A stretch of DNA of 64,000 nt from Mimachlamys varia (taxonomy: Eukaryota; Mollusca; Bivalvia; Pectinida; Pectinidae). Positions 33,819 through 59,574 of this stretch are shown piece after piece (the stretch's first letter is position 1; every line of letters starts with the position of its first letter). The notes under the pieces are model-generated. The model had not been told where the DNA came from. It saw nothing but the letters and a program-made list of their open reading frames with translations, and did no database searches. The stretch covers positions 26,907,001 to 26,971,000 of the forward strand of contig OX392538.1 of NCBI GenBank assembly GCA_947623455.1. Reading direction: 5' to 3'. Both the position numbers and the translations under genes were made by a program.

Positions 33819-33927
33819 AATAAATTAGCACTACTTGAACTTTGTAAACATTGCAAATTTAAATACATTTAAATATAAATACTTGTAACTTGTATAATGC
33901 ATTCTATATATTTTTTTCTCTATTCTT

Positions 33928-35033: not shown

Positions 35034-35343
35034 CCATCATTTTTCAAAAGTCATACCTCCATGATTAAAGAATAGCTGTGTCAGAACTCTCGCTCTTTAA
35101 GTCTATTTCTGTTGCTGGAGTGTATCTGTGTGTGTTCACTGTGTGTGTGTTCACTGTGTGTGTGTTGAGAGAGTGTAGTGTTTTTTGGTCTACCGCGTGA
35201 CACCGCTTAATTTACATATTTTTTTTTAATTTAAATTTCCATCAATTCCATCAACTGCCTTCCATGTATGTTCAATAGTTGTGAGTTATCGGCCTCTACA
35301 ATTCATTCCATCTGTGACATCCTTTAGGTGTCACCCCACTAGT

Positions 35344-37848
35344 AAAATATCAGTACAAGAAAAACTAGGAACAAACATTTGACGATCTGTAAAATTAAAC
35401 TAATTTTATTATGAATATTTTCATACTATACGATCGAAATCATTTGAATCGTTGGGTGATTTAGCCCATTTGGCTGTTGTGTATATTTGTTCAATAACGG
35501 AGAGTCTTATATCATGAAGCTTTTATCAAAACTGTTTAACTTCACGTGTCGCGGTATTATTGTTGTTAATTCAATTAAATGACATTTGAGTTTTCCATTT
35601 TTTTTTTTTTTGAGACAAGTATAGGTAAAAACATGTTAACAAAATATTGCCTTACTTACATGACCTTTCATATTGGGGAAAATATGTGGACTACACCTTT
35701 GGTAGCATTCTATCCAGTGTGGCAGATGAATTCAAAGATTATCTTAGAAACTGCTATTAAATTGACCAGCGAAAGAATAAGATATACTATCATTCTGGTT
35801 TTAGGATGTATAAGGCTATTTGACGACCGATTAATATAAACAGTATGGTGTTTCGCAAACCAACTCACAACGACCAATGCCTCCAGTTCGACAGAAAACA
35901 AACCTAACATTCTAGGGGGTCATACGTACACAAACTTGTAGCGCCAACTCGATCTTCTCTACTGAAGAAGCCAGAATTGAGGAGAACCAACTCACACAAT
36001 TACTGAGTGTGCTGGGCTATACCAGTTGGCCGTCGCCTACCAAAAGCATCGACCATAGATGGTAAACCAGTATGGGATTGCCAACGAGCCAAAGGCAATA
36101 TCACCACGACCCCCCCCCCCCCCCCCCCCAATACATAGGAGGAGTAATGTGGTCAGCTGAAAACATAAGCAATGTAGGGGTGATAATATATTCTGAACCC
36201 CATCGTGCCAACCGAGGTATGTTGGGCCCTCAAGGGAAAAAATACACACCAGAGACAAGTCTGGTACCAGCTACCATATCAAGAGTGTATACTATCTGGC
36301 GGCATATGTAGTCGAGACTGAAAGACTTCTTCACAAACAGGTATCAAAAACACAACCACGACCCTTATTAAGAAGGTGGCCAGGTGCGAGAAAATTTCCA
36401 CTCATTTAAACCTGATTACATCAGAGTAATTACGTAACACACACACACATGCTTCACATTTTACATATAGTAATAGATACCGTATGCCGGTAAAATGCAT
36501 AAAACTGCATGATACAGCTGGTTTGTTTTTCTAGGACTCGTCAGTGATGCTAGGAGCCAAAAGGTGAGAATAGAAATTTTTAAACAAATATAGAAGCATA
36601 AGGGTCAGGTGCGTGACACCCTTTAATTTATGAATTTAGAAAAAAGAATTATCAAGAACCACGTTGATGCCAACGGGAGTCAAGGAGGCTAAATGTATGT
36701 TCATGAAAGTATGGGAACGGAATCAGGGGCAGATTGACGTTACATTGATGTATTTGTTTGCTGTCAATGTGTATGTATGGTTAAAAAGGGAAGGTTTTGA
36801 AGCCATACCAATATTCCATTGCTTAGTAGAAACTATAAAAACTCAGGTGACAAAAGAGTGGTCAGGTTTTCAAGAAAAAGTATTGAAAGATGAATAACTA
36901 CACTGTACAATTATGATTGAAGAGATATGTTCTCTATTGTTTCAATCCTTTTCTAATATCATGGACGTCCTTTTGTCTAAAGTTGTTCCATTAATATGTC
37001 AAGGATCCCCAGGATATTATATTCATACGTTTGTATACAACCAAATGAAACAATATGGTATGACTTCTTTTTTGATTGTTTGTATGACCGTAACTTACCA
37101 AACAGTAGAAAAAATAATGGTTTCACAATCTCCTCATGTGGTGTGCAATGCAGATAAACCCAATGACGTGTGTATATATATATACATAAAGAAGCAATGA
37201 CGTAATGATCTGGAAACTTCCAAATGATTACGTGTATGTTCGATATAGCGACACACTAATAAAGGGTTTTTACGAAAAATATTTATAGAATTGTTTCGCA
37301 GAAACGTCCACAGGAACCCAAGAATTTGTTGAAGCTATATGTGTACTTAAGCTTTAATGTTTAGATCGAACAAAGGAACAATCTCAAGCCATGAATGAAA
37401 CATGAGTAGAAAGCACGGTATGAAGTTTGAGTTTTACAAGCCAAGGGGAATCATTTGTATGGACGACGCAAGCGACGACTGACGACACCGGATAAATACA
37501 TTTTGTATTTCCCCGTCACAAGCAAATTGAATCTACTTGGCTAATACATAATCTAAATGAAATTCAATTAAAACCAAATATTCTGTTATCATTTACTCAT
37601 ATTTCCCCAATTGGCCCCATTCCTTCTTTAAAATTGTCTTGCTTTGAATTTGGTTTTTTAAATTGACGTCTTTTTTTTTCATTATTGATCATAACAAATA
37701 TTTGCCCAGTGTATGTGTTCACACATAGTTTTATAAACGTATACACAGGATATCGTCTGACGTAGTTTAAAAGTATTGATGGCCAAATCACTTGATATGT
37801 TATGACCGGACGTGTTCCAATTTCTAATCTTTATTTTTCATTTTCAAT
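35344..37848 (+). mobile_element. Penelope-like element relic, copy B
   Basis: A 2505-bp unit nearly identical to copy A (3202-5706), followed at 37849 by the start of a second unit. It holds the same RKPTH-block remnant (about 35850), C run (36111-36129, longer than in copy A), GIY-YIG-like region and the 77- and 95-codon ORFs (36664-36897 and 36913-37200). A T-run expansion near 35600 changes the upstream frame relative to copy A. Its part from 36414 onward belongs to segmental duplication unit I. Confidence 0.65.
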
Positions 37849-38296
37849 AAAATATCAGTACAAGAACAACTAGGAACAAACATTTGACGATCTGTAAAAT
37901 TAAACTAATTTTATTATATATATTTTCATACTATACGATCGAAATCATTTGAATCGTTGGGTGATTTAGCCCATTTGACTGTTGTGTGTATTTGTTCAAT
38001 AACGGAGAGTCGGTTTATCATGAAGATTTTATCAAAACTGTATAACTTCACGTGTCGCGGTATTATTGTTGTTAATTCAATTAAATGACATTTGAGTTTG
38101 CCATATTTTTTTGAGACAAGTATAGGTAAAAACATGTTAACAAAATATTGCCTAATTTACATGACCTTTCATATTGGGGAAAATATGTGGACTACACCTT
38201 TGGTAGCATTCTATCCAGTGTGGCAGATGATTTCAAAGATTATCTTAAAAACTGCTATTAAATTTACAATCGAAGGAATAAGAAATACTATCATGC
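37849..38296 (+). repeat. truncated second PLE unit meeting the LINE 3' end
   Basis: Follows the start of the PLE unit for about 450 bp, then stops matching where the minus-strand LINE begins, just beyond the LINE stop codon (38299-38301). The two elements face each other with converging 3' ends. The LINE therefore inserted into, or was recombined next to, an existing PLE array. Confidence 0.7.
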
Positions 38297-38298
38297 TA

Positions 38299-41206
38299 TT
38301 AGACTTGGAAGTAATGTATAAAGATACGACGGGTTAACTTGTTGTGCATTTTATAAAATAAAGTAAGATTTCTACGTTCTCTCCTGATTTTTAAAGTATC
38401 CCATCCTGTTTCAAGATATAGAGATTGAATAGTTGCATATGCTGGTAGCCCAGTTACTACTCTGGCTGCTTCCAATTGTAGTTTTTCTAGCAGGTCAATA
38501 TGGAATTTGGAACAACCACTCAAATGCGCACATGCATATTCCATTATAGGTAGAATGAAACATGTATAAATTTTGCTCAAAAGTTTCCTGTTCACCAGAA
38601 ATTTTAACTGCCTTAAGGCATTTATTCTTTTTGAAGCACTTTTATAGATATTTTCAACATGATCACCCCACTTAGCACTTGCGCTAAATGTAACCCCCAG
38701 GTGCTTATGGTTTTCAGAGAAATTTAAAATGCTATCGTTAAACAATAACTCTAAACTATGTGTTTTTAAAGTATTAGATATAAAAAGAACATCTATATTT
38801 TTGAAATTGAATGTGACCAACCATTTCTTGGACCATGTAATTATACATTGAAGATCATGATTCATTACCCTTTCAATTTCCACACAAGATTTAGAGCCAA
38901 ATATCATGGAAAAAAATGTCTGCAAAAAGTCTAGACACGCTAATTTAATTTTCAGAAATATCGTTTATAAAAATTAAGAATAAAAGTGGACCTAGCACTG
39001 AACCCTGTGGTACTCCTGCTTTTAAAAAATGACTATTCGAATATGATTCCCCAATATAACCTTTCTGTTCACGGGCCTGAAGATAATTAGTTATCCATTT
39101 CAATAAATTTCCTGTAATACCATACGTTTTAAGATTTCAATTAAACCCTTATGCCTAACTCTGTCAAAGGCCTTTGATATGTCACAAAAGACAGTACAAG
39201 TATGTTTCTTTTCCTCTAAATTTAAACAGATATGATGATAAATTTCGATAAGTTGATGCACAGTCGAATGATAAGGCATACATTCAGATTGTCTTGAAAA
39301 GAAAAGTGAGTTATCTAAAAAATAATTATGAATATGTTTGACAATTACTCGTTCAAAACTTTTTCTATAGCTGACAGCAAAGAGATTGGTCTATAATTTG
39401 AGGGTAAATGCTTATCGTCTTTTTATACAGTGGCATAACTATCACCTGTATCCATAAGGTAGGGAAGGAGCATTTAGACAATGACATATTGAATATTTTT
39501 TGTAGAGGTTTACATATAGTTTTCGCAGTGTATCGTAACATATGGTGACTAATACCATCTATACCAGGAGCTTTACTTAATTTAAATGTTTCCAAGACGT
39601 CTTTTATCTCTGAATGTTCTACTTGAATAGATGACATGGAAGAATTGGTTCTGGGATCAAGGGACGGAACTGTTATTTGTATCATGTAAGTCTGTAATTG
39701 AAGAAAAATAATTGTTTAAAAGATCCGCCTTTTCAGAATCATTATATATAGTACTACCACTATGTGGATCAACTAGAGGAGGTATGTCATTAGATTTACC
39801 ATTTGTTTTGATTAATCGCCTAAACAGTTTCCAATAAGATTTCGGATCCAATACTACAAACCTATCAATAAGACAGTCTAGATTAGCAGAAAAAGATTCA
39901 CGCACATGTTTTAGCATATTATTTACCCGATTTCTAGCTCTCTAAACCAACTTTTATCAGTATCACGCTTACTTCTTCTACACTTTTTATGTAACCTATC
40001 ACGTAGTCTTATAGATTTGCGCAGTTCATACGTCATCCACGGCTTGTCATTAGGTCTTATATTAATAACTTTTTTGGGTATACATGCACAGATCATACAA
40101 TTAAAGGTATCAGAAAAACGTGTACATGCTTCTTCAACACTCCCTGATTCCATAAACATTTCATTCCAAGAACGATTCTCGATTTGCCTATTTAATTCGT
40201 TAAAGTCTGCTTGTTTATAGCACCATATTTCGCGTTTACAAGATAAGTTGAGCTTACTTACAACTTCTATGTAGACTTGGCATGCTTCATGATCACTAAT
40301 ATTCCTATCAATGGGTAAAACTGATGATTCAATATGTTTAATCTGTTCTGAAATAATGACCGGATCAAGAAGACTTGCACTAGTATTGGTTATCCTTGTG
40401 GGTGAATCAATCACATTTTTCAGATTAAAACTCGTTAAATTATCAGAAAAAACGTGTTGCTTAGAAAAAGTAAGCATGTCTACATTTATATCACCCACAA
40501 TAACTATGTTAGCTGATGAATCAATTGCCTTTTCAATAGACGAACGAAACCCTTCCCAAAAATAACTATTGACATTTGGAGGTCTATACACAGTACATAG
40601 TAAAATACAACTACGTGGAAAATCTAGCTGTATCCATATTAACTCGCCATGTGGAAATTCTAAATCTATACGTCTAGTAGCCTTTATTTGAGTCAATACG
40701 AACAACAAAATCCCACTACCAGCAACATTTCTGTCAGCCCTAAAAGGTTCGCTAAAACCTTGTAATTCTAAATCACTAGTCAGTATATTTTCATCAAGAT
40801 GAGTTTCGGTTAACGAAATAACGTTATAGTCGCTAGCAACATCCGATAAATAATCTTTTTTGTTTCTAAAACTTCGAATATTTAAATGAAAGATTGATAA
40901 TTCATGACTATTTGGTCCTGGATTTGGTTCCACATCCATGCATTTAAGTAATAAAATTAAAACAAAAACTGTATACATGGTGTTGTTAAAATAACTTTGA
41001 AGTGACAATAACTTAAGTACAAGTAGTACGTTACAAGGATTATACATGTCCGCTAGTTTCTTGCACCTATCTAGTAGTGATGACATTAAATATCGTAATG
41101 TTAAAAATCCTTTTTTAAACAAAAGACCGTATACTTTTATATAATACAATCCAATCGCAGCCCTATAACACATTAAACTACTACCCATTGTCAAAAACAT
41201 ATGCAC
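38299..41206 (-). pseudogene. CR1/Jockey-like non-LTR retrotransposon, copy 1 (2A-like motif, APE endonuclease, RT)
   Basis: Read on the minus strand. A 427-codon ORF (41206 to 39923) has a hydrophobic N-terminal ~90 residues, the 2A-like DVEPNPGP at residues 91-98, then APE-type endonuclease motifs: LNIRS, TETHLDE, YRPPN, GDINVD and SDHEA. RT pieces follow in several frames: KAPGIDG (39549-39569), FCDISKAFDRV (about 39150-39190), a PQGSVLGPLLF block (about 38980-39015), then a 208-codon C-terminal piece (38925 to 38299) with ITWSKKWL and LGVTFSASAKW. Frameshifts near 39920 and 39670 and a stop near 38943 are shared with copy 2. The FADD catalytic block is destroyed only here. CR1/Jockey assignment is by motif style; it is not mobile. 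Confidence 0.85.
40913..40936 (-). other. 2A-like recoding motif DVEPNPGP in LINE copy 1
   Basis: Minus-strand codons spell DVEPNPGP, a full match to the D-[VI]-E-x-N-P-G-P consensus that makes ribosomes skip a peptide bond before the last Pro. It follows the hydrophobic stretch VFVLILLLKCM and directly precedes the endonuclease. 2A-like motifs at this place have been described in non-LTR retrotransposons of invertebrates. Confidence 0.85.
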
Positions 41207-42179
41207 TACAGGTCACCGAGGCACGATCGGACGAACTCGTGCGCGGCATTACCGCACGAAGTATTTGCTTTACAACGTGTGAACAGGTAAATCTAGGTTG
41301 AAAAGGTAAATAGAGCGCAGACGGTAAAGAAGTCAGAGTAAGCAGGAGACAGAACGAACAAGGAAACATAATGGCAATAAATAAGTACTAACAATCATTT
41401 GGTTCAAGGTTTTTGAGTGGATCCAACTATAAGAGAGACAGTAAGCTAGACATAAAACACAGTATAATATAAGTACATATTTAATTAGCATCTGGTAAAG
41501 CTACATACGTTTCGACGTTTTATGAAGTTTGTATGTACAAAGATATATATATACAAAGGCAAATTTGCATGGAAAAAAGATGTATAAGTTTACAAGTAAA
41601 CAATTGTGTATTTACGTAGCTTTGGTTATTCTTATCAGGTTAAAAAAAAAGGGAAAAAAAAGGGGGGGGGGCACTCTTTTAACCTGTCAATTAAGTAGTA
41701 AAAATTATTTCACTTTGTACATACACAGATGGCTGGCTATACATGTACATGGATATCACACTAGTATACACATATCGAGGTGGTTTCAATGGCTACGCAT
41801 CCGCACCAGGTATGTAAACATTGCATCAGCGCAAACATAGGGTGATGGTAATATACATAACAAGTAAAATACCAGTGTAGCGAAATATTTATAAATATAC
41901 AATTATTCACTTCTTCAAATATTATAAGCATCACACGAGTGTACATTGTGATGGTTATGTACCTAAATATGGTTGTTTACTAACATTACATATGTGTACA
42001 TACAGTGTGGTGGGTATGTACGTGAATATAGTGCTTCACTGTGAAAACATTAACATATGTACACGGTTTGTTATCCTTTCTCCCACTTTTTTGGGATCAA
42101 AAGAATTATATAAACACTTGAGAACAATGGCACACCAATTATAGTCTGTTCTGGGAAAGTGCAAATTTCCCACAGTCCT
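41207..42179. other. LINE 5' flank or UTR, no gene recognised
   Basis: Repeated at 51252-52196 in unit II. Contains an A-run/G-run tract (41640-41670) and words such as GTGTGGTGGGTATGTACGTG that recur at 54050-54140. The LINE's true 5' end cannot be placed because both copies share the same flank through duplication. Confidence 0.5.
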
Positions 42180-42310
42180 ACACTGTGTTGTGCAATGCAG
42201 TTAAACCCTAATAAGGGTGTATATATACATACAGAAACTGTGACGTAATGATCTGGAAACTTCCAAATGATTACGTGTATATTTTATATATAGCGACACA
42301 CAATAGGGTT
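42180..42310 (+). repeat. diverged PLE-unit fragment in unit I
   Basis: TGTTGTGCAATGCAGTTAAACC, split here by small differences, and ATGATCTGGAAACTTCCAAA follow 37139-37260 of the PLE unit at lower identity. In unit II the matching fragment (54730-54845) is the end of a longer diverged PLE stretch. Confidence 0.6.
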
Positions 42311-42867
42311 TTTTTTCATAAAATAACGAAACGAAACTAATTAATGAAACATGCATAGGGACCAGAGAACCTGTTACAGAACTAAATTACTATCCAAGAT
42401 AGTGTGTTCAGTGTAATTAATCATGTTTTAGGGATCTAGATCGACTTTCCTTAAAAATGACATCCCCATTAGTCATATATACGATGACTTTGTGTTTCAT
42501 TTTACCGAAAGTCGATCTTAATCTCTTAAGCATGAAAAAACTCTTTGAACATCTTAGCTTAGGTCAAACAACTTCTCATGCCTTTGTGGAAACAGGGTTT
42601 ATATATTGAACAAGTTTTGACGGCTGATTCCCTGAACGCATACATTTTAAAAACAAGTATTAGGGAACATGTTGTTACAATGATTATAGTCTATTTCGTT
42701 AATATTATTTTGATTTACCTGTATTTTACCTGTGTTTTTCACTAGTACATGTGACAAAAATTTAGCTAAACATAATAGGTTAAGACTTAAAAAAAAAAAT
42801 GAATATGAAGAAACATACATTTTTTGTGATTAATTCCAAAACCATTTTTTAATTATCCTTTTGTTAG

Positions 42868-43373
42868 ATAGATTCCGAAAAGGCTTTTGATTCTGTTTCA
42901 TAGAATTTTAGAGATAGAACACTGATTTTTTTGTTTGGGGATAGTATAAGAAAATAGGTAAAACTTTTTCACTCAAATGTAAATTCAGTTATAAATCAGG
43001 ATGGTAATCTATTAGCTTTCTTTAAGGTCAAACCGAAAAGGTGACCCAATTGCGCCATATATTTTCATATTACTCATAGAAATAATAGCAATATGGTAAA
43101 GAAATAATAGAAATATAACGGGTATGTATATAGATGATTTTCTAATTCTCCTTTCTCATTACGCTTGATGGATCTGAAAAATCATTGAATCGAATCTATT
43201 TTTTCAATTTTCAGGCTTGAATATGAACACAAATGCATGAAATTCCTAAACTAATCTTTGATAAAAAAACGTATTTTGCTTAAATTTCTGATAAAGACGT
43301 GGAAAAGAAGAATTTTAACTCCTATTATCAAAGTTCACATTATCAGATTTCTTCAAATTTATAAACAGATATC
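42868..43373 (+). pseudogene. L1/Tx1-like reverse transcriptase relic, unit I
   Basis: At 42868 the plus strand reads IDSEKAFDSVS then a stop, matching the D-F-E-K-AFDSVSW block of L1/Tx1-type RTs. Downstream, in shifting frames, KLFHSNVNS, INQDGN and DGSEKSLNRI appear where such RTs have those blocks. Stops and frameshifts are frequent, so it is an old fossil. It ends abruptly at the duplication junction. Confidence 0.6.
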
Positions 43374-44828
43374 ATTTAAACCTGATTACATCAGAGTAAT
43401 TACGTAACACACACACACATGCTTCACATTTTACATATAGTAATAGATACCGTATGCCGGTAAAATGCATAAACTGCATGATACAGCTGGTTTGTCTTTC
43501 TAGGACTCGTCAGTGATGCTAGGAGCCAAAAGGTGAGAATAGAAATTTTTAAACAAATATAGAAGCATAAGGGTCAGGTGCGTGACACCCTTTAATTTAT
43601 GAATTTAGAAAAAAGAATTATCAAGAACCACGTTGATGCCAACGGGGGTCAAGGAGGCTAAATGTATGTTAATGAAAGTATGGGAACGGAATCAGGGGCA
43701 GATTGACGTTACATTGATGTATTTGTTTGCTGTCAATGTGTATGTATGGTTAAAAAGGGACGGTTTTGAAGCCATACCAATATTCCATTGCTTAGTAGAA
43801 ACTATAAAAACTCAGGTGACAAAAGAGTGGTCAGGTTTTCAAGAAAAAGTATTGAAAGATGAATAACTACACTGTACAATTATGATTGAAGAGATATGTT
43901 CTCTATTGTTTCAATCCTTTTCTTATATCATGGACGTCCTTTTGTCTAAAGTTGTTCTATTAATCTGTCAAGGATCCCCAGGATATTATATTCATACGTT
44001 TGTATACAACCAAATGAAACAATATGGAATGACTTCTTTCTTGATTGTTTGTATGACCGTAACTTACCAAACAGTAGAAAAAATAATGGTTTCACAATCT
44101 CCTCATGTGGTGTGCAATGCAGATAAACCCAATGACGTGTGTATATATATATACATAAAGAAGCAATGACGTAATGATCTGGAAACTTCCATATGCTTAC
44201 GTGTATGTTCGATATAGCGACACACTAATAAAGGGTTTTTACGAAAAATATTTATAGAATTGTTTCGCAGAAACGTCCACAGGAACCCAAGAATTTGTTG
44301 AAGCTTTATGTGTACTTAAGCTTTAATGTTTAGATCGAACAAAGGAACAATCTCAAGCCATGAATTAAACATGAGTAGAAAGCACGGTATGAAGTTTGAG
44401 TTTTACAAGCCAATGGGAATCAAGGGGAATCATTTGTATGGACGACGCAAGCGACGACTGACGACACCGGATATATACATTTTGTATTTCTCCGTCACAA
44501 GCAAATTGAATCTACTTGGCTAATACATAATCTAAATGAAATTCAATTAAAACCAAATATTCTGTTATCATTTACTCATATTTCCCCAATTGGCCCCATT
44601 CCTTCTTTAAAATTGTCTTGCTTTGAATTTGGTTTTTTAAATTGACGTCTTTTTTTTCATTATTAATCATAACAAATATTTGCCCAGTGTATGTGTTCAC
44701 ACATAGTCTTATAAACGTATACACAGGATATCGTCTGACGTAGTTTAAAAGTATTGATAGCCAAATCACTTGATATGTTATGACCGGACGTGTTCCAATT
44801 TCTAATCTTTATTTTTCATTTTCAATAA
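43374..44828 (+). mobile_element. Penelope-like element relic, copy C (5'-truncated by the duplication)
   Basis: Matches copy B from 36414 to its end, so it lacks the RT and endonuclease remnants. The 77-codon (43633-43866) and 95-codon (43882-44169) ORFs are intact. A partial next unit follows (44829-45265) and meets the LINE 3' end exactly as in unit I. Confidence 0.75.
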
Positions 44829-45267
44829 AATATCAGTACAAGAACAACTAGGAACAAACATTTGACGATCTGTAAAATTAAACTAATTTTATTATGAATA
44901 TTTTCATACTATACGATCGAAATCATTTGAATCGTTGGGTGATTTGGCTGTTGTGTGTATTTGTTCAATAACGGAGAGTCGGTTTATCATGAAGATTTTA
45001 TCAAAACTGTATAACTTCACGTGTCGCGTTATTATTGTTGTTAATTCAATTAAATGACATTTGAGTTTTCCATATTTTTTTGAGACAAGTATAGGTAAAA
45101 ACATGTTAACAAAATATTGCCTAACTTACATGACCTTTCATATTGGGGAAAATATGTGGACTACACCTTTGGTAGCATTCTATCCAGTGTGGCAGATGAT
45201 TTCAAAGATTATCTTAAAAACTGCTTTTAAATTTAAAATCGAAGGAATAAGAAATACTATCATGCTA

Positions 45268-45661
45268 TTAGACTTGGAAGTAATGTATAAAGATACGACG
45301 GGTTAACTTGTTGTGCATTTTATAAAATAAAGTAAGATTTCTACGTTCTCTCCTGATTTTTAAAGTATCCCATCCTGTTTCAAGATATAGAGATTGAATA
45401 GTTGCATATTCTGGTAGCCCAGTTACTACTCTGGCAGCTTCCAATTGTAGTTTTTCTAGCAGGTCAATATGGAATTTGGAACAACCACTCAAAAGCGCAC
45501 ATGCATATTCCATTATAGGTAGAATGAAACATGTATAAATTTTGCTCAAAAGTTTCCTGTTCACCAGAAATTTTAACTGCCTTAAGGCATTTATTCTTTT
45601 TGAAGCACTTTTATAGATATTTTCAACATGATCACCCCACTTAGCACTTGCGCTAAATGTA
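45268..45661 (-). pseudogene. LINE copy 2, C-terminal segment
   Basis: The last part of the RT C-terminus (LLSKIYTCFILP, LQLEAARVVTGLP, RRERRNLTLFYKM), matching 38299-38700 of copy 1. It is cut at 45661-45665 by the left-truncated beta transposon; about 40 bp of LINE beyond the cut are missing. Confidence 0.85.
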
Positions 45662-45664
45662 AAT

Positions 45665-46977
45665 GTTTTGAATAAATCTCTCTTTCAATTGAAAACCGCA
45701 GAATAAGGGAACGTACTCGTCACATGAATGGCAATTTACGTACATTCAGGACACCGATTACATCTGGATCAAATTTTTAAAATTTCCATCGCCGATCGGC
45801 AAATTTATGTGGCACGCCGCATAGCCAAAACAAAAATCTTACCGTCTGCGGTATGACGAGTTATGACATTGTGTCAGATCTCTTAAATCAAACATCTTCC
45901 CGTAGCATATAGCGAAAAATTATCCTATGCCCTCCATTTTGAACTATTTACTGTTTTAGATATTCATACGCCTAACTTAGAGGCATGGTGAAACATCGAC
46001 AAAATTAACAATTAAATTGGATTCAAGCATGCAGTAAAGGTAAATGTTACTTGGTATATCGTCACAAAGCAAAAACTGCCCGTTCCTATCACGATAAATT
46101 GTTTTTAGCGATTGTCAGTTTTCCATTTTTGGGCGAATCTATAGCACGTGAAAAGATGTTGTTCGGCACTTCCGGCAGTGTTATTTTAGGTAATTTAATG
46201 ATTTTGAAAGAATTGTCAACAAAGTTTAATTTGTGTTGTATAAATTCTGATGGAATTCGTATATATTATACACTTCCGCGTGGATCGGACAGTCTTAACT
46301 CACTGATTATACCGATTCGTTCTCGGCTTCGCACCTGTCACACATCGCTAGCGTAAATTGTTGACATCGTAAACATGTGTGGCAGTTGAGGCACATTGGC
46401 ATCAAAATACATTTCTCAAACTTAATTAGTAATTTGGTAACCGTATCGTAAATGTAAATTACGTTATGTCGGTGTTATTATTTTAATTTTATACCTTTTT
46501 TTTGACACGAAACTTACATTTACATGACAAATGACCTATTCAATATAAAATAATGCCCCTATATTGCCCCCACGAGATACAGGTAACTACTTTTACCTGA
46601 ACTGAAAACAGCATGCAATGGACGACATTTTTTATAGGGGGTACCTGTGTATTTCTCCCTGATACTCTGATTTACAGAATAATATCGAAATTTTAACACT
46701 GGGTTATCATTCTATGAACATTGCAGTAACTTTGTATTATTTTTTTAAATGTTTCAAATAACTATATGAAACATATTTGCGCACTCCCATTTCGATATTA
46801 TTTACTGAATATTTTTTTCCTAAGTACAGATTTTTTTTATTTTGGGGGCTTAATTGCATTTTATATCAATATTTAACATAATGGGATAAAGCTTATGCCA
46901 TGTATTGGAAGGAAACATTAAAATTTCAATATTACCATTTTCATCCAGGTAACAACCAATATGGCTGTACCTAGTCC
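45665..46977. mobile_element. beta TTAA transposon, left-truncated, inserted in LINE copy 2
   Basis: Matches 12497-12968 joined to 15741-16574. The right end CTGTACCTAGTCC is intact and followed by TTAA (46978-46981), continuing into the LINE exactly as at the single TTAA of copy 1 (38738-38741). The left ~290 bp of the element and ~40 bp of adjoining LINE are deleted. It carries the uninterrupted TATA site that the nested TA element occupies at 12971. A 101-codon ORF (46051-46356) is open here but broken in the full copy by an indel at about 15781. Confidence 0.88.
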
Positions 46978-49048
46978 TTAAACAATAACTCTAAACTATG
47001 TGTTTTTAAAGTATTAGATATAAAAAGAACATCTATATTTTTGGAATTGAATGTGACCAACCATTTCTTGGACCATGTAATTAAACATTGAAGATCATGA
47101 TTCATTACCCTTTCAATTTCCACACAAGATTTAGAGCCAAATATCATGGAAGTGTCATCTGCAAAAAGTCTAGACACGCTAATTTAATTTTCAGAAATAT
47201 CGTTTATAAAAATTAAGAATAAAAGTGGACCTAGCACTGAACCCTGTGGTACTCCTGCTTTTAAAAAAATGACTATTCGAATATGATTCCCCAATATAAC
47301 CTTTCTGTTCACGGGCCTGAAGATAATTAGTTATCCATTTCAATAAATTTCCTGTAATACCATACGTTTTAAGATTTCAATTAAACCCTTATGCCTAACT
47401 CTGTCAAAGGCCTTTGATATGTCACAAAAGACAGTACAAGTATGTTTCTTTTCCTCTAAATTTAAACAGATATGATGATAAATTTCGATAAGTTGATGCA
47501 CAGTCGAATGATAAGGCATAAATCCAGATTGTCTTGAAAAGAAAAGTGAGTTATCTAAAAAATAATTATCAATATGTTTGATAATTACTCGTTCAAAACT
47601 TTTTCTATAGCTGACAGCAAAGAGATTGGTCTATAATTTGAGGGTAAATGCTTATCGTCTTTTTTATACAGTGGCATAACTATCACCTGTATCCATAAGG
47701 TAGGGAAGGAGCATTTAGACAATGACATATTGAATATTTTTTGTAGAGGTTTACATATAGTTTTCGCAGTGTATCCTAACATGGTGACTAATACCATCTA
47801 TACCAGGAGCTTTACTTAATTTTAATGTTTCCAAGACGTCTTTTATCTCTGAATGTTCTACTTGAATAGATGACATGGAAGAATTGGTTCTGGGATCAAG
47901 GGACGGAACTGTAATTTACATCATGTAAGTCTGTAATTGAAGAAAAATAATTGTTTAAAAGATCCGCCTTTTCAGAATCATTATATATAGTACTACCACT
48001 ATGTGGATCAACTAGAGGAGGTATGTCATTAGATTTACCATTTGTTTTGATTAATCGCCTAAACAGTTTCCAATAAGATTTCGGATCCGATACTACAAAC
48101 CTATCAATAAGACAGTCTAGATTAGCATAAAAAGATTCACGCACATGTTTTAGCATATTATTTACCCGATTTCTAGCTCTCTAAACCAACTTTTATCAGT
48201 ATCACGCTTACTTCTTCTACACTTTTTATGTAACCTATCACGTAGTCTTATAGATTTGCGCAGTTCATACGTCATCCACAGCTTGTCATTAGGTCTTATA
48301 TTAATAACTTTTTTGGGTATACATGCACAGATCATACAATTAAAGGTATCAGAAAAACGTGTTCATGCTTCTTCAACACTCCCTGATTCCATAAACATTT
48401 CGTTCCAAGAACGATTCTCGATTTGCCTATTTAATTTTTTAAAGTCTGCTTGTTTATAGCACCATATTTCGCGTTTATAAGATAAGTTGAGCTTACTTAC
48501 AACTTCTATGTAGACTTAGCATGCTTCATGATCACTAATATTCCTATCAATGGGTAAAACTGATGATTCAATATGTTTAATCTGTTCTGAAATAATGACC
48601 GGATCAGGAAGACTTGCACTAGAATTGGTTATCCTTGTGGGTGAATCAATAACATTTTTCAGATTAAAACTCGTTAAAATATCAGAAAAAACGTGTTGCT
48701 TAGAAAAAGTAAGCATGTCTACATTTATATCACCCACAATAACTATGTTAGCTGATGAATCAATTGCCTTTTCAATAGACGAACGAAACCCTTCCGCAAA
48801 ATAACTATTGACATTTGGAGGTCTATACACAGTACATAGTAAAATACAATTACGTGGAAAATCTAGCTGTATCCATATTAACTCGCCATGTGGAAATTCT
48901 AAATCTATACGTCTAGTAGCCTTTATTTGAGTCGATACGAACAACAAAATCCCACTACCAGCAACATTTCTGTCAGCCCTAAAAGGTTCGCTAAAACCTT
49001 GTAATTCTAAATCACTAGTCAGTATATTTTCATCAAGATGAGTTTCGG
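46978..49048 (-). pseudogene. LINE copy 2, RT and endonuclease middle segment
   Basis: Colinear with 38738-40809 of copy 1. Here the RT catalytic block reads LFADDTSMIF (about 47144-47175) and is intact, as is NYRPISLLSAIEKVLNE (about 47585-47640). The stop before FADD and the frameshifts near 48165 and 47910 are shared with copy 1. A 2-bp deletion near 47780 is private. The segment ends at the TTAA where element alpha-1 is inserted. Confidence 0.85.
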
Positions 49049-49052
49049 TTAA

Positions 49053-50854
49053 AGGGGCATCCCGCGAAAGTAAGCTTTTTTTCATATTTTTTTTCAAAAT
49101 ATTACATACACATATCGAGTGGGTATTCTTATGGACTACGACGATCGGATTCCGCTGACATGTATTCATAAAATAAATAATTTCAAAATAACTAGTGGAA
49201 TTCCAAAACGTCTGGCCAGACATTCTGAATTGGGATTTCCACCTACCAACGCATGCGCAGCGAGCGCCGTTTCCATTGTAAACACTCTAACTGTTATTAC
49301 CGTTACACTACGATAAGGCCTAACTTCAAAGCGAAAAGTTGCCGAATGGTCAAAATATGACACAAGACTGCGTTACGGAATCATATTGAGAGATGGGAAG
49401 TATTCTAAGGAGAAACTACCTGCTCTATTGTGTGTATGTTACATATTTCTTCTGTATAACGGTAACATGCACAAATAAAGCTTTGATTTGGTTTTGAGGC
49501 AACCCAAGGGGAAACTGTTTCAGTCTTCTGTTGCATAAAATGCGTATGTAATATTAAACTTAAAAGTTTGTTTTATAATATTCTCTTAATAAAATCTTAT
49601 GTTCCAGTAAAACAGTATGATTTAATTATATTGCTGGATAGAAAGACATTTTCAAATACTATATATACCATAACAGAAAAAAGTCGTTTGATTACGTTGT
49701 AAAATGGGACGTGCGACCGAGGTACATACGGCTTCAATTTGGACAAAAGGAATATAAAAATTTGTTTTCACGCGTAAAAAAAGTGATATTCATACTTAAT
49801 CTATAAATTAGTGAAGGTACAAATATCATTGGTTGCGACCCCGGTATTGAATTTGATACGAAAATATATACATAACTGGAAAAAAAAAAAAAAAAAAACC
49901 AAAGTTATACAACATATACTTATATGTATATTCCATTCCTTCAGGTTTTTTTTTTTTTTTAAATCACCGTCCCTTTACAAGACGACAAAAAAGATGTTAA
50001 AAGAAAGCGGAATTATCATAACATATTCATAACGTGTAGTTATAAGTGTTTCAACAGTTCCAAATCTGATATACATGTAGTCATGCTTATAGTGTGTCGT
50101 TATATGAGTGTGTGGACTTAAATATTCGCATTCCGTGATACGTGTTAACGTGTGAAGACGCTGAAAGTTGGATAGATTTTAAATGAATATGAATGTACTT
50201 TGTATATATATAGCTGAGAAAAAGTCCTCAAGACATTGAGTTGTAAAAAAAATATCGCAAACATTTCATGTCATTTTTTTTCGAACTTTTCAATGCATGC
50301 TACATACATTTTATGAAATCATCTGAAAAGTTGATTCGTGAATATTACCTTTAACATAAATAAAGGTTTGTACCATGGCCGTATTAATTAAAAATATTCC
50401 GTACCCATGTGTACCGGTCTCGGTCAGGTAAATATAATATACATGTAGATAATTCCTGGTGTCGATCGATATATGGTGCCGATATGCCGACAATTATTCT
50501 TCATTTGAATATCGGTATGTGTGCAATTGATGTCTAATTTCAATGTGAATGTGATTCAATAAGTTTATACACGGACTTTGTCTCTGTTTCATCAGCCGTA
50601 TACATTAATATTACGCGTCCCCTCCCGTATGGCCCCTTCCGTCAAACTGAGCAGAAAACTTGCGGCACACCTGTCACGCTGCGTCATCCCCGCTATTTTT
50701 ATCTGGGCTTCCCCGAGGAATGCGATTTTGCAAGTGGTAATTATAGACATTTTGAGTGGACTGTTGAATTTGGGAATAACAGGAAAGTATAATAAGTAGT
50801 GCAGACGCCATGTATATTCAAGAACAGGCATTCAGGCTTTCGCGGGATGCCCCT
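49053..50854. mobile_element. TTAA DNA transposon, family alpha, copy 1 (1802 bp) inside LINE copy 2
   Basis: Perfect 18-bp inverted ends AGGGGCATCCCGCGAAAG, flanked by TTAA (49049-49052 and 50855-50858). LINE copy 1 shows the empty site with a single TTAA at 40810-40813 and otherwise matching sequence on both sides. Non-coding apart from short ORFs. Its right 260 bp match the left of alpha-2 in reverse, and its left subterminal text (AGCGAAAAGTTGCCGAATGG) matches alpha-2's right. Purine-purine ends fit Kolobok better than piggyBac. Confidence 0.92.
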
Positions 50855-50858
50855 TTAA

Positions 50859-51251
50859 CGAAATAACGTTATAGTCGCTAGCAACATCCGATAAATAATC
50901 TATTTTGTTTCTTAAACTTCGAATATTTATATGAAAGATTGATAATTCATGACTATTTGGTCCTGGATTTGGTTCCACATCTATGCATTTAAGTAATAAA
51001 ATTAAAACAAAAACTGTATACATGTTGTTGTTAAAATAACTTTGAAGTGACAATAACTTAAGTACAAGTAGTACGTTACAAGGATTATACATGTCCGCTA
51101 GTTTCTTGCACCTATCTAGTAGTGATGACATTAAATATCGTAATGTTAAAAATCCTTTTTTAAACAAAAGACCGTATACTTTTATATAATACAATCCAAT
51201 CGCAGCCCTATAACACATTAAACTACTACCCATTGTCAAAAACATATGCAC
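50859..51251 (-). pseudogene. LINE copy 2, N-terminal segment with 2A-like motif
   Basis: Minus-strand ORF start at 51251, nearly identical to copy 1, with DVEPNPGP at 50958-50981 (residues 91-98) after a hydrophobic stretch, then FHINIRS. The frame runs across the alpha-1 boundary and stops a few codons inside the transposon. Confidence 0.85.
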
Positions 51252-52185
51252 TACAGGTCACCGAGGCACGATCGGACGAACTCGTGCGCGGCATTACTGC
51301 ACGAAGTATTTGCTTTACAACGTGTGAACAGGTAAATCTAGGTTGAAAAGGTAAATAGAGCGCAGACGGTAAAGAAGTCAGAGTAAGCAGGAGACAGAAC
51401 GAACAAGGAAACATAATGGCAATAAATAAGTACTAACAATCATTTGGTTCAAGGTTTTTGAGTGGATCCAACTATAAGAGAGACAGTAAGCTAGACATAA
51501 AACACAGTATAATATAAGTACATATTTAATTAGCATCTGGTAAAGCTACATACGTTTCGACGTTTTATGAAGTTTGTATGTATAAAGATATATATATACA
51601 AAGGCAAATTTGCATGGAAAAAAGATGTATAAGTTTACAAGTAAACAATTGTGTATTTACGTAGCTTTGGTTATTCTTATCAGGTTAAAAAAAAAGGGAA
51701 AAAAAGGGGGGGCACTCTTTTAACCTGTCAATGAAGTAGTAAAAACTATTTCACTTTGTACATACACAGATGGCTGGCTATACATGTACATGGATATCAC
51801 ACTAGTATACACATATCGAGGTGGTTTCAATGGCTACGCATCCGCACCAGGTATGTAAACATCGCATCAGCGCAAGCATAGTAAAGTACCAGTGTAGCGA
51901 AATATTTATAAATATACAATGATTCACTTCTTCAAATATTATAAGCATCACACGAGTGTACATTGTGATGGTTATGTACCTAAATATGGTTGTTTACTAA
52001 CATTACATATGTGTACATACAGTGTGGTGGGTATGTACGTGAATATAGTACTTCACTGTGAAAACATTACACATATGTACACGGTTTGTTATCCTTTCTC
52101 CCACTTTTTGGGATCAAAAGAATTATATAAACACTTGAGAACAATGGCACACCAATTATAGTCTGTTCTGGGAAAGTGCAAATTT
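51252..52185. other. unit II copy of the LINE 5' flank
   Basis: Matches 41207-42168 with small indels, for example about 24 bp lost near 51880. No gene recognised. Confidence 0.7.
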
Positions 52186-54189
52186 ACAGGTATATTATTT
52201 ACCTGTAATTTTTACAAAGTCAGAATACATGTACTTTATAGATCACAATGTATTCACATATAATTTTTATTTTGGTAATAATATTTCTTTTTACTAATTA
52301 TCAGTATTATATGGATATATTTCATGATATAAAGTAAAAAGTATACTTAGAATATTTAGCACTCGATATTAGTTAATTAAAAATTCAATGAAACACAAAC
52401 ATTTTTATAATTAATTAGTAGTTCTAATTGTTTACATGTATATCAGGAAGGCTTAGTATACACACTTAGCACTGGATAACGGATGATAGATTATTCTTTA
52501 AAACTTTAACATGCATACTGTAACTTTAGTATGTCCATGTACATGTTCATTGTATAACAATATCATATCCAAATATATTAAGCCCTATTATCATCTAAAT
52601 CCATCTGTCTTTAATCAATTTAACTTCTATCATCTGCCAAAACGAAAGAATTCTGTAATTTTGGAAAGAAAAAAAAAATATTTTGCAAATACAGCAAGAT
52701 CTACTTAATGCAGTAAATAATTGATTGCTGTAATATTGGAATGACCTTGATGAAAAATTGCTGTTTAATACATATTGTATCTATAAACTGTATCAGTTTA
52801 TGATCAATAAATAATTACTAAATAATTTATTGCTGATTCTGTTTTAACCAGTTTAAGCAGTGGTCAGTTGATGGACTCAAGCTATGTTGATAAAGTTATC
52901 GGATAAAAAACGTGGCATTTTCTAATATGTATATATATATATATATCAACATTATATCATGTGAAAATTCCAACAAACTATTCTTTTTGAAGTTGACCAA
53001 CTATTGCAAACCTCAGTGGGAAAACTTAGTATGTGTAAACTATAAAAAGTATATTCCAGGTTATAGAATAACAGAATGTGTACATGGGCTTTTCCTAAAT
53101 TTGAACCTGTTACCTTTTTTCCAGAATTCAAATATATTATATCAACACTATTTAGTGTGAAATTCCAATAGACTTTTCTTTTGAAGTTTAATTACCAACT
53201 ATTGTAAATCTTAACTAGAACACTGTATGTGTGTAATATTAGCTGTGAAGTATATTTTGCTGAAGGTTAAAGATTATCAGAATGTGTTGGTGTGGGTAGG
53301 TAGACTCACTGAGCTACTTTTAGAAAAGATCAATAGTTTATTTTATTATTTTATGAATTTTAATTAACAGTATGTGTGAAGAACTGAATCTGTACTTTCA
53401 ATAATTTTAATAACGTAGTATAATCTGTATTTAAGTAAACTAGTGTCTCATAGGTCAACTTGGCCAGATATTGATTCAATCAATTTTGTCTATTAACATG
53501 TGAACTTGTAAATTATGAATCAATATATGACACTCCAATAGAATAAATTATTATCTTTATTAATAATCACATTAAAGATATGATTATAAAAATATTGATG
53601 ATAATATAGTAGTTATTATTTAATCATATCTACTAAATAAGTTCTTCCAAAATAATGAACTTATATGACTTAATTCACAGTATTTAATCATTTATAACAA
53701 AGCAATATCTTTAATATATATACTTGTTTGTACAATAGCTGTACCCTGCAAATCTAGCTGATGAAAATGGTATATGATATGTAAAATTTGGTTAAATAGT
53801 GATGAAATGAGATGATTTCAAAATTTGTTTAAAACACAGGTTAAAACCATGTTATGTGGGAGAACACAGATGGAATTCAGGTAATGTGAGAGAACACAGG
53901 TAAAATCCAGGTAAGGTATATATGAAGGTATATATTGACTATAATGACTGTCAAAACATACCTGCCCCTATGTTATTTTTGAAAAGTGAGAGAAAGGAGA
54001 ACACACCATGTATATGAATATAAGACTTCACTATGAAAACATTACACATATGCACACAGTGTAGTGGTTATAAAAATGTACCTGGATAGAGTACTTCACT
54101 ATGTAAACATTACACATATGTTAACAGTGTGGTGGTAATATACCTGGATATATTACTTCACTATGTAAACATTACAACAAAAGGCAAAA
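52186..54189. other. AT-rich DNA present only in unit II
   Basis: About 2 kb with ACAGGTA/TACCTGT words at its left, a TA microsatellite (52926-52946) and two ~63-65-bp repeats with ACTTCACTATGTAAACATTA (about 54025-54175) related to text at 52045. No ORF is convincing. Since PLE homology continues across the right edge of the missing stretch (54724), unit I probably lost this DNA. Confidence 0.5.
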
Positions 54190-54420
54190 GGTATCAAAAA
54201 CACCATCGAGATGCCTCTAAAGTTGGGGAGACTGAAAGACCAGTCCACAAGCAAATGTCAGAAACACCACCGAGACACCTCTGACGTGGGGAGACTGAAA
54301 GACTAGTCCACCAATAAGTGTCAGAAACAAAACCGAGAGGCCTCTTAAGTGGGAAAACTGAAAGACCAGTCCGAAAATTGGTATCAGAAACACCACTGAC
54401 ATTTCTCTTAAGTAGAAATG
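54190..54420. repeat. 63-bp tandem repeat (~3.5 units) derived from the PLE endonuclease region
   Basis: ACTGAAAGAC recurs at 54231, 54294 and 54357. Each unit reads ACTGAAAGACYAGTCC, then (G/T)TCAGAAACA, then a GAG-GCCTCT-type word. The order matches 4165-4215 of the PLE (GACTGAAAGACTTCTTCAC, then GGTATCAAAAACACAACCACG), so the PLE segment was amplified. Minus-strand ORFs with a 21-residue period are by-products. Confidence 0.75.
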
Positions 54421-54845
54421 AAAGATGAATAACTATGATCAATTATGATTCAAAATGGGTTTTTTCCACTATTTCCATCCTTTTTTAATATCAGGGACAT
54501 TATGTTGTCTAATAATGATTCAAAACGGAATACTTGATTTCAGTTTGCGAATGTGGATAGTTTATCTCTAATTAGATATAACCCGTATTTATTGATAATA
54601 TAACGTATCTAAATCCATTTGAAACATTATAGTATGTCTTCTTTCGTGATTTTTGAATGACAGTAAAATGAATATGATTATACGTACTTACCCAAAAGTC
54701 TAACTGTGGTACCAGGTGTGTCTTCGCAGTCCTCTCTGTGTTGTGCAATGCAGTTAAACCCTATATACATACAGAAACAGTGACGTAATGATCTGGAAAC
54801 TTTCAAATGATTACGTTATATTTTATATATAGCGACACACAATAG
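54421..54845 (+). repeat. diverged PLE-unit fragment in unit II
   Basis: Follows 4738-5115 of the PLE unit at moderate identity: AAAGATGAATAACTA, ATCCTTTTTTAATATCAGGGAC, split by differences, then TGTGCAATGCAG and GATCTGGAAAC. The short ORF equivalent to 4764 opens but stops early. Confidence 0.65.
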
Positions 54846-55071
54846 AAGGGGTTTTTTTATAAAAAAAACGAAACGAAACTAATTAATGAAACATGCACAG
54901 GGACCAGAGAACCTGTTACAGAACTAAATTACTATCCAAGATAGTGTGTTCAGTGTAATTAATCATGTTTTAGGGATCTAGATCGACTTTCCGTAAAAAT
55001 GACATCCCCATTAGTCATATATACGATGACTTTGTGTTTCATTTTACCGAAAGTCGATCTTAATCTCTTAA

Positions 55072-57356
55072 AGGGGCATCCCGGGGAAGTCTACAATGAA
55101 GTTCTTGAATGTACATGCTGTCTGCACTACCAGATATATTTTCCTGTTATTTCAATATTCAAAGTCCACTCAAAATGTGTTTATTAGCCCCTTGCAAAAT
55201 TGCATTCCTCGGGAAAGCCCGATAAAAATAGCGCTGATCACACGACAAGTGACAGCGTTCTCGGTCAATTTGACGAAGGGGCCCAAGAGGGGACGCGTAA
55301 TGTAAGATCTACACATGTACGTCCGATGATGAACTAGACACAAAGTCCGTGTATAAATTTATTGAATCACATTCACATTAATAATCAGACGTTAATTACA
55401 CACGATATTCATATGAAGAAATTTATGTCGACATCTCTGCATCATTTACCGACATCAGTACCTGACTGAAACCGCGATGCAAATCGCCAGAAACCCACAC
55501 GACACTGCACTCTTACATTGTACGTTTAACAGTGTCAAGTGGGTTTCCGACGATGACAACCATAGGGCAAACCTTAATTTCTGTAAAAAGTTATTTTCAC
55601 GAAACCTCATTTAGAACCATTTCACTAAAGGTGTGCATGCATTGAAAAGTACAAAAATAAAATGAAATTATTCCGATTTTTTTTTATACAACTCGATGTC
55701 TTGAAGATTTTTTTTCAGACTATCTACAGTTACATGCCATAAGTCTTTCAATTTTTTTTTATTTTGCTATATATTCTTTGTATTTCCAACTTTTTTCAAT
55801 GAATTTTCCTGACTTCGTTTCGGGATCATTTTTAATGAAATTTTGTGTACTTATAGAGAATTATTTCCTTTTTCATCTCATAATATTTTCTCTGTTATCC
55901 GTTATGTATAATTAGAGCAATCATAATTTATTTACAACATCCAATTTTCGGGACGCCATTTTGACCTCATTTTGGTAACGTTACATATGTATATAGAGAA
56001 ATGGCGTCACACGGAAATTAGCAGTGTATACAATTCTGTATAGCTCCATAAATACACAACGGAAAATTAAATAAATATTATCAGAGAAAACCTTGTATAT
56101 TTCTTTAGTAAATGACAAAAATTTGTCAAAATCCATCCATAAACGAAGTCAGGAAAATTCATTGAAAAAAGTTGGAAATACAAAGAATATACAAAATGTA
56201 TAGCAAAATAAAAACAAATGAAAGACTTTTGGCACGTAACTGTATATATTCATCTAAAATCTATCCAACTTTCAGTGTCAACATACTTTAACACTTACAA
56301 TTATATATGTATCACGGAAGTTCGTGCACTCATATGACGCACCGCGCACTAAACATGTAGAATATATATATCAAATTTGGAACTTGTCGAGAAGATAATT
56401 GTCCAATACTTAATCCATTTATATATGTTATGATTCATTTTACTTTTTTTTATGTAAATTTAAAGGTTCGTTAACATTTTCAACACAACTGCAGACATGG
56501 GATATACATGTATATGATTTTTTCTTTATGAATTAATGACTTCACTTATAAAATGCATACTTGATTCATATCAAATTTGTTACCGGGGTCCAAACCCGAT
56601 CATATTTATACAATCCGTATTTTATAGATTAGGTATGACAAGATTTTTTTATCCGCTCATGATGACATAAATTAATTCATTTTGTCCAAATTGAATCTGT
56701 ATACATTAAACTCAATCGCCCTATACCGGCGTTTTACAACGTAACACCCCCCCCCCCCCCCTACGGTTTTTCTTGTATGTGAAAAGGTCTTTCTCTTCAG
56801 ATATATATTTCAATAAGCTGTTTTACTGGAATATTATAAAGGGAATATTACAATACACGCTTTCAAGTTTTACACACGCATTTCATGTAACAGAGGAATG
56901 AAAGAGTTATCCCTTGGGAGGCCCCAAAACCAAATAAAAACTGTGTCACCGGCAATCCAGAAGAAAACTGTAACATGCAAACAATTGGGCTGTTTGTCTC
57001 TCCCTTGAATACTTCCCATCCCTCATTATGCTTCCGTAATATAATCCTTACGTTAAAGTTTGACCATTCGGCAACTTTTCGCTTGGTAGTTACATGTAGG
57101 TCACGCGGATCGCCATTTTTGTTTACCGATGTAGCTTGTTATGCGCATGCGTTATCATATGTGATGCAAAAAAATTTACATGTCCAAATCGTTGATCAAC
57201 GAATAGTGATTCCCTTTTTTAATTATTAATTAAAATTTATGAGAACATATTTCAACGTAAATCGCCCATTAATTTTCCACAATAGTATACATTTATTTCA
57301 TATACATAATAATTCTAAATAAGCATAAAAAAATATAGTTTTACCGTGATGCCTCT
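55072..57356. mobile_element. TTAA DNA transposon, family alpha, copy 2 (2285 bp)
   Basis: Ends AGGGGCATCCCGGGGAAG and, inverted, AGAGGCATCACGGTAAAA, flanked by TTAA (55068-55071 and 57357-57360). Unit I has the empty site at 42526-42529 (AATCTCTTAAGCATG). Internally homologous to alpha-1 in the opposite orientation. It is longer mainly because of a nested MITE at 55727-56242. No transposase ORF; TIRs are more diverged than those of alpha-1. Confidence 0.9.
55727..56242. mobile_element. 516-bp TA-flanked MITE nested in alpha-2
   Basis: Long inverted arms of about 95-105 bp begin CAGTTACATGCCATAAGTC on the left and CAGTTACGTGCCAAAAGTC (inverted) on the right. Both arms contain TTTGTATTTCCAAC and CAATGAATTTTCCTGACTTC. 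TA lies on each side (55725-55726 and 56243-56244). Alpha-1 lacks it at the corresponding place. CAGT ends and a TA target suggest Tc1/mariner-type mobilisation. Confidence 0.85.
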
Positions 57357-57702
57357 TTAAGCATGAAAAAACTCTTTGAACATCTTAGCTTAGGTCAAAC
57401 AACTTCTCATGCCTTTGTGGAAACAGGGTTTATATATTGAACAAGTTTTGACGGCTGATTCCCTGAACGCATACATTTTAAAAACAAGTATTAGGGAACA
57501 TGTTATTACAATGATTATAGTCTATTTCGTTAATGTTAGTTTGATTTACCTGTATTTTACCTGTGTTTTTCACTGGTACATGTGACAAAAATTTAGCTAA
57601 ACATAATAGGTTAAGACTTAAAAAAAAATAAAAATGAATATGAAGAAACATACATTTTTTGTGATTAATTCCAAAACCATTTTTTAATTATCCTTTTGTT
57701 AG

Positions 57703-58960
57703 ATAGATTCCGAAAAGGCTTTTGATTCTGTTTCATAGAATTTTAGAGATAGAACACTGATTTTTTTGTTTGGGGATAGTATAAGAAAATAGGTAAAACT
57801 TTTTCACTCAAGTGTAAATTCAGTTATAAATCAGGATGGTAATCTATTAGCTTTCTTTAAGGTCAAACCGAAAAGGTGACCCAATTGCGCCATATATTTT
57901 CATATTACTCATAGAAGTAATAGCAATATGGTAAAGAAATAATAGAAATATAACGGGTATGTATATAGATGATTTTCTAATTCTCCTTTCTCATTACGCT
58001 TGATGGATCTGAAAAATCATTGAATCGAATCTATTTTTTCAATTTTCAGGCTTGAATATAAACACAAATGCATGAAATTCCTAAACTAAACTTTGATAAA
58101 AAACGTATTTTGCTTAAATTTCTGATAAAGACGTGGAAAAGAAGAATTTTAACTCCTATTATCAAAGTTCACATTATCAGATTTCTTCAAATTTAAAAAC
58201 AGATATCTTTGGTCAGATGTGATTAAATCTTTGGAGAGGTTGACTAATTCTTATGTTAATAGAAAGAAAACGTTCACTTCTGAAAATCCCTTTATTAAAA
58301 TTGATACTCTAAAGTTGTAAGATATGTAAAGATACTAGTTCCCTCTCACTCTATATCGCTATCCATCTTCTTTTTCTCTTAAAAAAGGGAATTTATTACA
58401 CGACAAATATTTTCAAGGTACATGTGTATTGTTTAATAATAAAATGAATAATATTTTATGACACTGTTTCCATGTTACAGAACGTCTTCTTTCCATTCCT
58501 TTAAACATATAATTGATAATGAAAAAGGCAAAAGTAATAAAAGACATGTATATAATTCCCTCAAAATAATAAAGAAATCTCAACAGGTAGGGAAAAGTTG
58601 ACTGAGCATTTTGACTTTGATAAATCTGCTTGGGGGAGTTTTTTCTTTATCTTTCAAAATCACAAATAATTCAAAACTTAAGTGGTTTCAATTTAGAATT
58701 CTCATAATATTTTGGCAACCATTTCATATTTATTTAAGGCAAACCTAGTTAAAAGCAGCCCATTGTGTTCACTCTGCAACTTAGAGAAACACTTGCTGTA
58801 ACGTAGGAATGTCAACTAGTTCAAAAATTTACTTCAAAGTTTTGAAATACTTCTAGATGCACTCTTAATTCTGTTCACAGTCAACAAAGATTAATTTATG
58901 TTTGGAACATGGTCTCAGACATATGATTATAGTAAAATTGATAATGAATTATTGTAAATA
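57703..58960 (+). pseudogene. L1/Tx1-like reverse transcriptase relic, unit II and beyond
   Basis: Begins like 42868 (IDSEKAFDSVS then stop) and continues past the duplicated segment. Further on, 58690-58800 reads KWFQFRIL in one frame and CVHSATLEKH or CSLCNLEKHLL in neighbouring frames. These are the position and style of the W-x-RIL and C-x2-C...H block near the C-terminus of L1/Tx1 ORF2. Many stops and shifts; inactive. It extends to roughly 58960, where recognisable text ends. Confidence 0.6.
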
Positions 58961-59124
58961 ATTAGAATAATCATAAAACATTTACAAATTAACTAGGTGT
59001 TCATAAAACTCTCTCAGATTAAGTGCACTAGTTAAATCACAGACTTAGATAGCAATCTAATCCAATTCTGTGGTTTAATTAATAAAAGATCGTCATTAAC
59101 ATAAAAATGTATTAAAATGAGATT
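58961..59124. other. no gene recognised
   Basis: AT-rich spacer. Confidence 0.5.
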
Positions 59125-59426
59125 ATCAACACTTTCGATAATAAAAAGCATTAGTACTTGTAGTATTAAATATTGAATTTGATATTATTATCTTATCTTT
59201 CTTTCATGAAGTTTCAATAGTTTCAGTAAGTAACCTATATAGGTGATATGTCTCAGGTAAATAGCACAGGTAGATATCAACACTTTCGATAATAAAAAGC
59301 ATTAGTACATGTAGTATTAAATATTGAATTTGATATTATTATCTTATTTTTCTTTCATGAAGTTTCAATAGTTTCAGTAAGTAACCTATATAGGTGATAT
59401 GTCTCAGGCAAATAGCACAGGTAGAT
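59125..59426. repeat. 151-bp direct tandem duplication
   Basis: 59125-59275 is repeated at 59276-59426 with about three differences. Each begins ATCAACACTTTCGATAATAA and ends AAATAGCACAGGTAGAT. Confidence 0.95.
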
Positions 59427-59574
59427 TTACAGGTGAAATATCTCGGGTAAATATGATATAGACTATAATTACCCTCCTTTTGATGTTCTACCCATTGTCC
59501 TAAACATGTATGGGAACACACCGTTTTGACGCGCTGAACGCTGTGATATTGAGATGGTATGAGCCACTTCATCA

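Follow-up and report, generated by a model that had tools for sequence, protein, structure and literature searches.

A probable tandem duplication of about 9.5 kb in repeat-rich DNA of the scallop Mimachlamys varia, with a two-base junction and a legible later history

Mobile elements of the piggyBac kind, which are bounded by TTAA, usually have ends of the form CCY...RGG and can leave a site without a scar. They are one of the described systems that come closest to the locus reported here, the others being non-recurrent tandem duplications of the NHEJ/MMEJ or FoSTeS/MMBIR class and the haplotypic false duplications that are seen in assemblies of heterozygous genomes. A reference for the breakpoints themselves is available from Drosophila, in which, according to the accessible portion of one report, 35% of the breakpoints of copy-number variants are blunt, and a further 41% show simple ends with microhomology of 2 bp or more (PMC4056370).

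The DNA that we analyzed is a 64-kb stretch of chromosome 12 of Mimachlamys varia (C12:26,907,001-26,971,000, as placed by a search of its own genome of 975,302,275 bases), and this whole stretch is called the window below. The available part of the genome note describes the assembly, xbMimVari1.1, as built from 44-fold HiFi data with hifiasm, purge_dups and YaHS, with a QV of 64.4 and a contig N50 of 19.4 Mb; the word “heterozygosity” is absent from that part (PMC11252643). The count of N was zero in the window and in all of the 30 loci examined, among which were the 20 kb on either flank, which makes 104 kb free of N.

When the window was compared with itself by self-BLAST (a first-pass annotation of this DNA had suggested a self dot-plot), 36402-43376 and 43372-58210 aligned collinearly on the plus strand in five blocks of 92-98% identity including gaps. 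The base-level comparison agreed, showing direct, adjacent copies in equal orientation, and the tandem segmental duplication that the annotation had placed at 36414..58207 is therefore real as a feature of the assembled sequence. By self-BLAST and base-level alignment, the two units are as follows.

36404..43373, plus strand: unit I, 6,970 bp, with 2,541 bp of the original gone
43374..58207, plus strand: unit II, 14,834 bp, with three TTAA elements

The limits proposed earlier for unit II are the same as ours at base level, and so is the end of unit I, while the start of unit I had been put at 36414, 10 bp too far right of its true start at 36404. No further copy of the duplicated unit was found within 20 kb on either side of the window, where the flanks matched the unit through related repeats on the left and through a single 310-bp match on the right; a longer array was rejected on the lack of an extra copy.

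Outside four large differences, the alignment of the units covers 6,858 bases and shows 87 substitutions (1.27%) together with 21 small indels. The substitutions are evenly spaced (p 0.89 by chi-square and p 0.59 for the longest identical run; the 88 substitution positions of this test include one, 38737, that belongs to the first element as finally delimited), and no patches of gene conversion between the units were seen by this spacing. At the four large differences, unit II has 45663-46977 where unit I has 38694-38737, 49053-50854 at a TTAA, 52186-54726 where unit I has CCCA, and 55072-57356 at another TTAA. These differences balance the lengths of the units exactly: 1271 + 1806 + 2537 + 2289 - 39 = 7,864 bp, which is the observed excess of unit II over unit I. 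The first reading had explained an extra ~7.9 kb by three TTAA elements and one stretch lost from unit I, closing to within a few tens of bases; it was correct in this, and one of the elements proves to be truncated on its left. The original unit is computed to have been 9,507 bp or nearly so.

We consider it very probable, from comparison of the two units, that about 9.5 kb of repeat-rich DNA was duplicated in tandem in the germline by non-homologous joining, and that unit I later suffered a loss and unit II gained TTAA elements. Two non-homologous sites in two different repeats would have been joined with an overlap of at most 2 bp, either by end joining or by replication with template switching. 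Afterwards, 2.5 kb would have been lost from unit I, three TTAA elements would have been gained by unit II after the duplication, and one of these would later have lost its left end together with some of its target.

Divergence outside the insertions, which the first-pass annotation had suggested for dating the event, does not serve this purpose, because 1.27% is below the heterozygosity of another scallop, Pecten maximus, given as 1.71% in the accessible text of its report (PMC7191990). The divergence could predate the duplication, as an allelic difference. Derived changes are about equal in the two units, so that neither unit is older by that measure: with a copy inside the window as outgroup, units I and II carry 7 and 11 changes in one stretch and 7 and 5 in another that overlaps it, and with five loci as outgroup they carry 6 and 3 (L004 was left out of the outgroup loci because its matches are the same as those of L003). 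It is possible, if rather doubtful, that the joining or template switching took place between homologous chromosomes. The units would then have entered the tandem as already different alleles, 1.27% apart and with at least part of the insertion differences, and the event would be much younger than the divergence suggests. If this is true, one would expect a single unit in the alternate haplotype or in other individuals, and that unit should match either unit I or unit II almost exactly. Tandem duplicates that are born already different would spoil dating by divergence, and the deposited alternate haplotype (GCA_947622925.1) could make the locus a test of whether such duplicates differ from the start in genomes of very high heterozygosity.

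The same divergence and the large insertion differences would also fit a single-copy locus whose two parental haplotypes had been joined end to end by the assembly, given the figure of 1.71% in the portion of the P. maximus report at hand (PMC7191990), and 8 haplotypic duplications had to be taken out of the M. varia assembly by its curators, as stated in the available part of the genome note (PMC11252643). From the assembly method and from a join free of gap and overlap, we judge such an artefact to be unlikely, and markedly so. An assembly gap at the join would be a sign of haplotypic false duplication, but no N is present at the join, in the window or in the 20 kb on either side of it; the overlap at the join does not go beyond 2 bp, and purge_dups had been applied to the assembly according to the same part of the note (PMC11252643). 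HiFi reads presumably cross the join, because an overlap assembler is not expected to join unconnected ends, and the tandem is presumably present in the animal.

The non-homologous duplication that we prefer rests on what lies at the junction and at the two breaks, which are located as follows.

43372..43373, no strand: junction, with TC common to both parental ends and nothing beyond
35343..37849, plus strand: left-break repeat of 2.5 kb, with the break 36403/36404 inside; 97.5% identity to 3201-5707 over its whole length
57453..59522, plus strand: right-break dispersed repeat of ~2 kb, with the break 58207/58208 inside

The dinucleotide TC is present at 36402-36403, 43372-43373 and 58206-58207, and the base-level comparison placed the junction after 43373 with no added bases. 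The earlier statement that only TC is shared at 43372-43373 was confirmed, as no longer overlap was found; the 301-bp stretches round the two breaks showed no significant similarity to each other (best E 0.45), and the repeats at the left and right breaks belong to different families. In a search of the own genome, a 301-base query spanning the junction yielded 759 candidates, and of the 40 that were scored only the locus itself matched over the full length. Ten weaker matches to this query start 15-29 bp right of the junction and not at it. At the left break, one locus (L009) too spans the break, to the left of which 153 of 192 columns agree, and another (L014) starts 28 bp right of the break. 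These starts complicate the picture: because the ten weaker matches begin right of the junction and L014 right of the left break, some members of the left family are without the break itself, and part of this family may stop just short of 36403/36404. At the right break, all six loci L003-L008 pass through 58207 at 92.9-94.1%. Among the further right-break loci, of which L010 is the place of L003 again, L011 (85%) and L012 (92%) continue beyond 58207 and L013 does so for 44 bp only (79%). The start of this repeat is kept in unit I as a truncated twin at 42622-43373. The right-break repeat also includes, at 59124-59426, a 151-bp direct tandem repeat whose two copies are 98% alike, and the six dispersed loci align as two pieces across it.

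Related repeats abound in the region and in its left flank, a setting in which a tandem could be made by unequal recombination between homologous repeats (NAHR), but the break regions share 2 bp only, without significant similarity over 301 bp round each, and the repeats in which they lie come from different families. Recombination between long repeats is therefore not supported, and we rule it out as having almost no probability. The first-pass annotation had read the junction as end joining rather than such recombination; the second half of this reading stands, and the first does not, because at least 2 shared bases occurred in 18.7% of 200,000 random joins of the window, so that the TC junction is compatible with replicative template switching as well as with end joining. 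Most of what can be recognised in the units is mobile DNA, but a composite mobile element that inserted twice independently, with no duplication, is scarcely credible and was rejected, as several unrelated elements make up the same mosaic in both units, with equal internal boundaries (42065 = 52083, 42622 = 57453), and the outer ends of the units fall inside elements.

We now turn to what would have followed the non-homologous duplication. Two of the four large differences allow the ancestral state to be read, and the first of them is the stretch missing from unit I.

52186..54726, plus strand: ancestral stretch, retained in unit II; unit I has CCCA at 42169-42172 instead

With a query over 52185/52186, 39 of the 39 scored non-self matches crossed the boundary (40 were scored among 167 candidates, one being the locus itself). 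The boundary is likewise crossed by every one of the 11 fetched loci (L016-L026), nine of which start at 52081-52083, and the right side of the stretch is homologous to 37066-37271 across 54727. Because dispersed copies cross its boundary, 52186-54726 is evidently ancestral, and this shows that unit I lost it, with 2,541 bp gone and CCCA in their place.

The second difference with a readable ancestral state lies in the only coding remains recognised in the units, a LINE that is common to both.

38299..41206, minus strand: decayed LINE in unit I, also in unit II, with endonuclease and reverse-transcriptase pieces (Pfam PF14529, PF03372, PF00078)

A search of the protein collection gave 27 relatives of the reverse-transcriptase piece, including one named from Mytilus edulis, and 11 of the 27 were aligned with this piece, giving 12 sequences including the query. 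All 12 agree at residues H86, H88, L89 and G90 of the unit I frame, for which the codons fall in 38695-38709, and the frame is uninterrupted in unit I at the site that corresponds to 45663-46977. Since invariant residues are encoded there, the alignment shows unit I to be evidently ancestral at 38694-38737. A search of the window with four relatives for the 3' part that the LINE lacks found nothing beyond ~38332 in unit I. At 39923-41206 on the minus strand, the LINE frame has DVEPNPGPN just ahead of the endonuclease, which we take to resemble the 2A peptides of other non-LTR elements. The duplication itself would be expected to have no function.

The proposed gains of unit II are the three elements listed below.

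49053..50854, plus strand: TTAA element, with TTAA at 49049-49052 and 50855-50858 and inverted ends AGGGGCATCCCGCGAAAG
55072..57356, minus strand: TTAA element of the family of 49053-50854, inverted, with TTAA at 55068-55071 and 57357-57360
45663..46977, plus strand: left-truncated TTAA element, lacking its left end with the TTAA on that side and 44 bp of target; ATG at the scar

The first two are 64-71% alike and inverted relative to each other; 49053-50854 carries AGGGGCATCCCGCGAAAG at both ends, and 55072-57356 has AGGGGCATCCCGGG at one end and the less similar AGAGGCATCACGGT at the other. Opposite each of these two, unit I shows just one TTAA. The third, 45663-46977, has TTAA on its right side only, because its left end is deleted: it is without the first 286 bp of a relative at 12204-16578 (12208-16574), which is flanked by TTAA on the left and on the right and has the inverted ends GGACTAGGTACAG. 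TTAA duplicated on both sides together with inverted ends was thus found for 49053-50854, 55072-57356 and 12208-16574, and for 45663-46977 the left side is missing. The two copies of this element in the window (45663-46977 and 12204-16578) are ~97% alike, a figure that only bounds the age of the element. The copy at 12204-16578 holds a nested element, 12971-15737, with inverted repeats of ~180 bp. A Pfam search of all 10 stop-to-stop frames of at least 75 aa within the three unit II elements found no transposase. The empty TTAA sites in unit I suggest later insertion in unit II but do not prove it, because excision of the piggyBac type can be scarless. By simple arithmetic, the chance that all three elements fall in the same unit is 1 in 4, and this one-sided distribution is a point against the scheme that we prefer.

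Elsewhere in the window, 2852-5707 and 35343-38297 each consist of one full copy of the 2.5-kb repeat and part of a neighbour, in different phase and with a period of ~2,505 bp, and they look like pieces of a tandem array. The 20 kb to the left of the window (L029 and L027; chromosome 12, 26,887,001-26,907,000) is an old complex array, crowded with copies of 1-2865 and of the 2.5-kb repeat at 64-97% identity. A 45-bp minisatellite of 80.8 copies occupies 8029-11674, with four ORFs of 225-399 aa running through it in frame, and a tRNA-Arg (TCT) lies at 33745-33820 on the plus strand (ARAGORN; Rfam 38 bits).

The locus offers a base-resolved case of how repeat-rich bivalve DNA grows, by one non-homologous duplication, after which one copy acquires TTAA elements and the other loses sequence. 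In its TTAA elements it resembles non-autonomous piggyBac-like elements, as the two complete elements of unit II and the relative at 12204-16578 have TTAA on both sides and short inverted ends; on the side of the differences, no transposase was found in the frames scanned, and the ends here begin AGGGG, AGAGG or GGACTAGG. Like haplotypic false duplications in heterozygous assemblies, it consists of similar adjacent copies, in a bivalve, that differ by substitutions and mobile-element insertions, whereas its join has neither gap nor overlap and comes from a HiFi assembly treated with purge_dups and curated manually, as the available part of the genome note has it (PMC11252643). In the duplication itself the likeness is to non-recurrent tandem duplications of the NHEJ/MMEJ or FoSTeS/MMBIR class, with direct copies, 2 bp shared, no added bases and no long homology, and the Drosophila breakpoint spectrum makes the scallop junction a typical one. 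The event is of a known, ordinary kind and is well preserved; it differs from that class in nothing, though its nested later history can be read unusually well.
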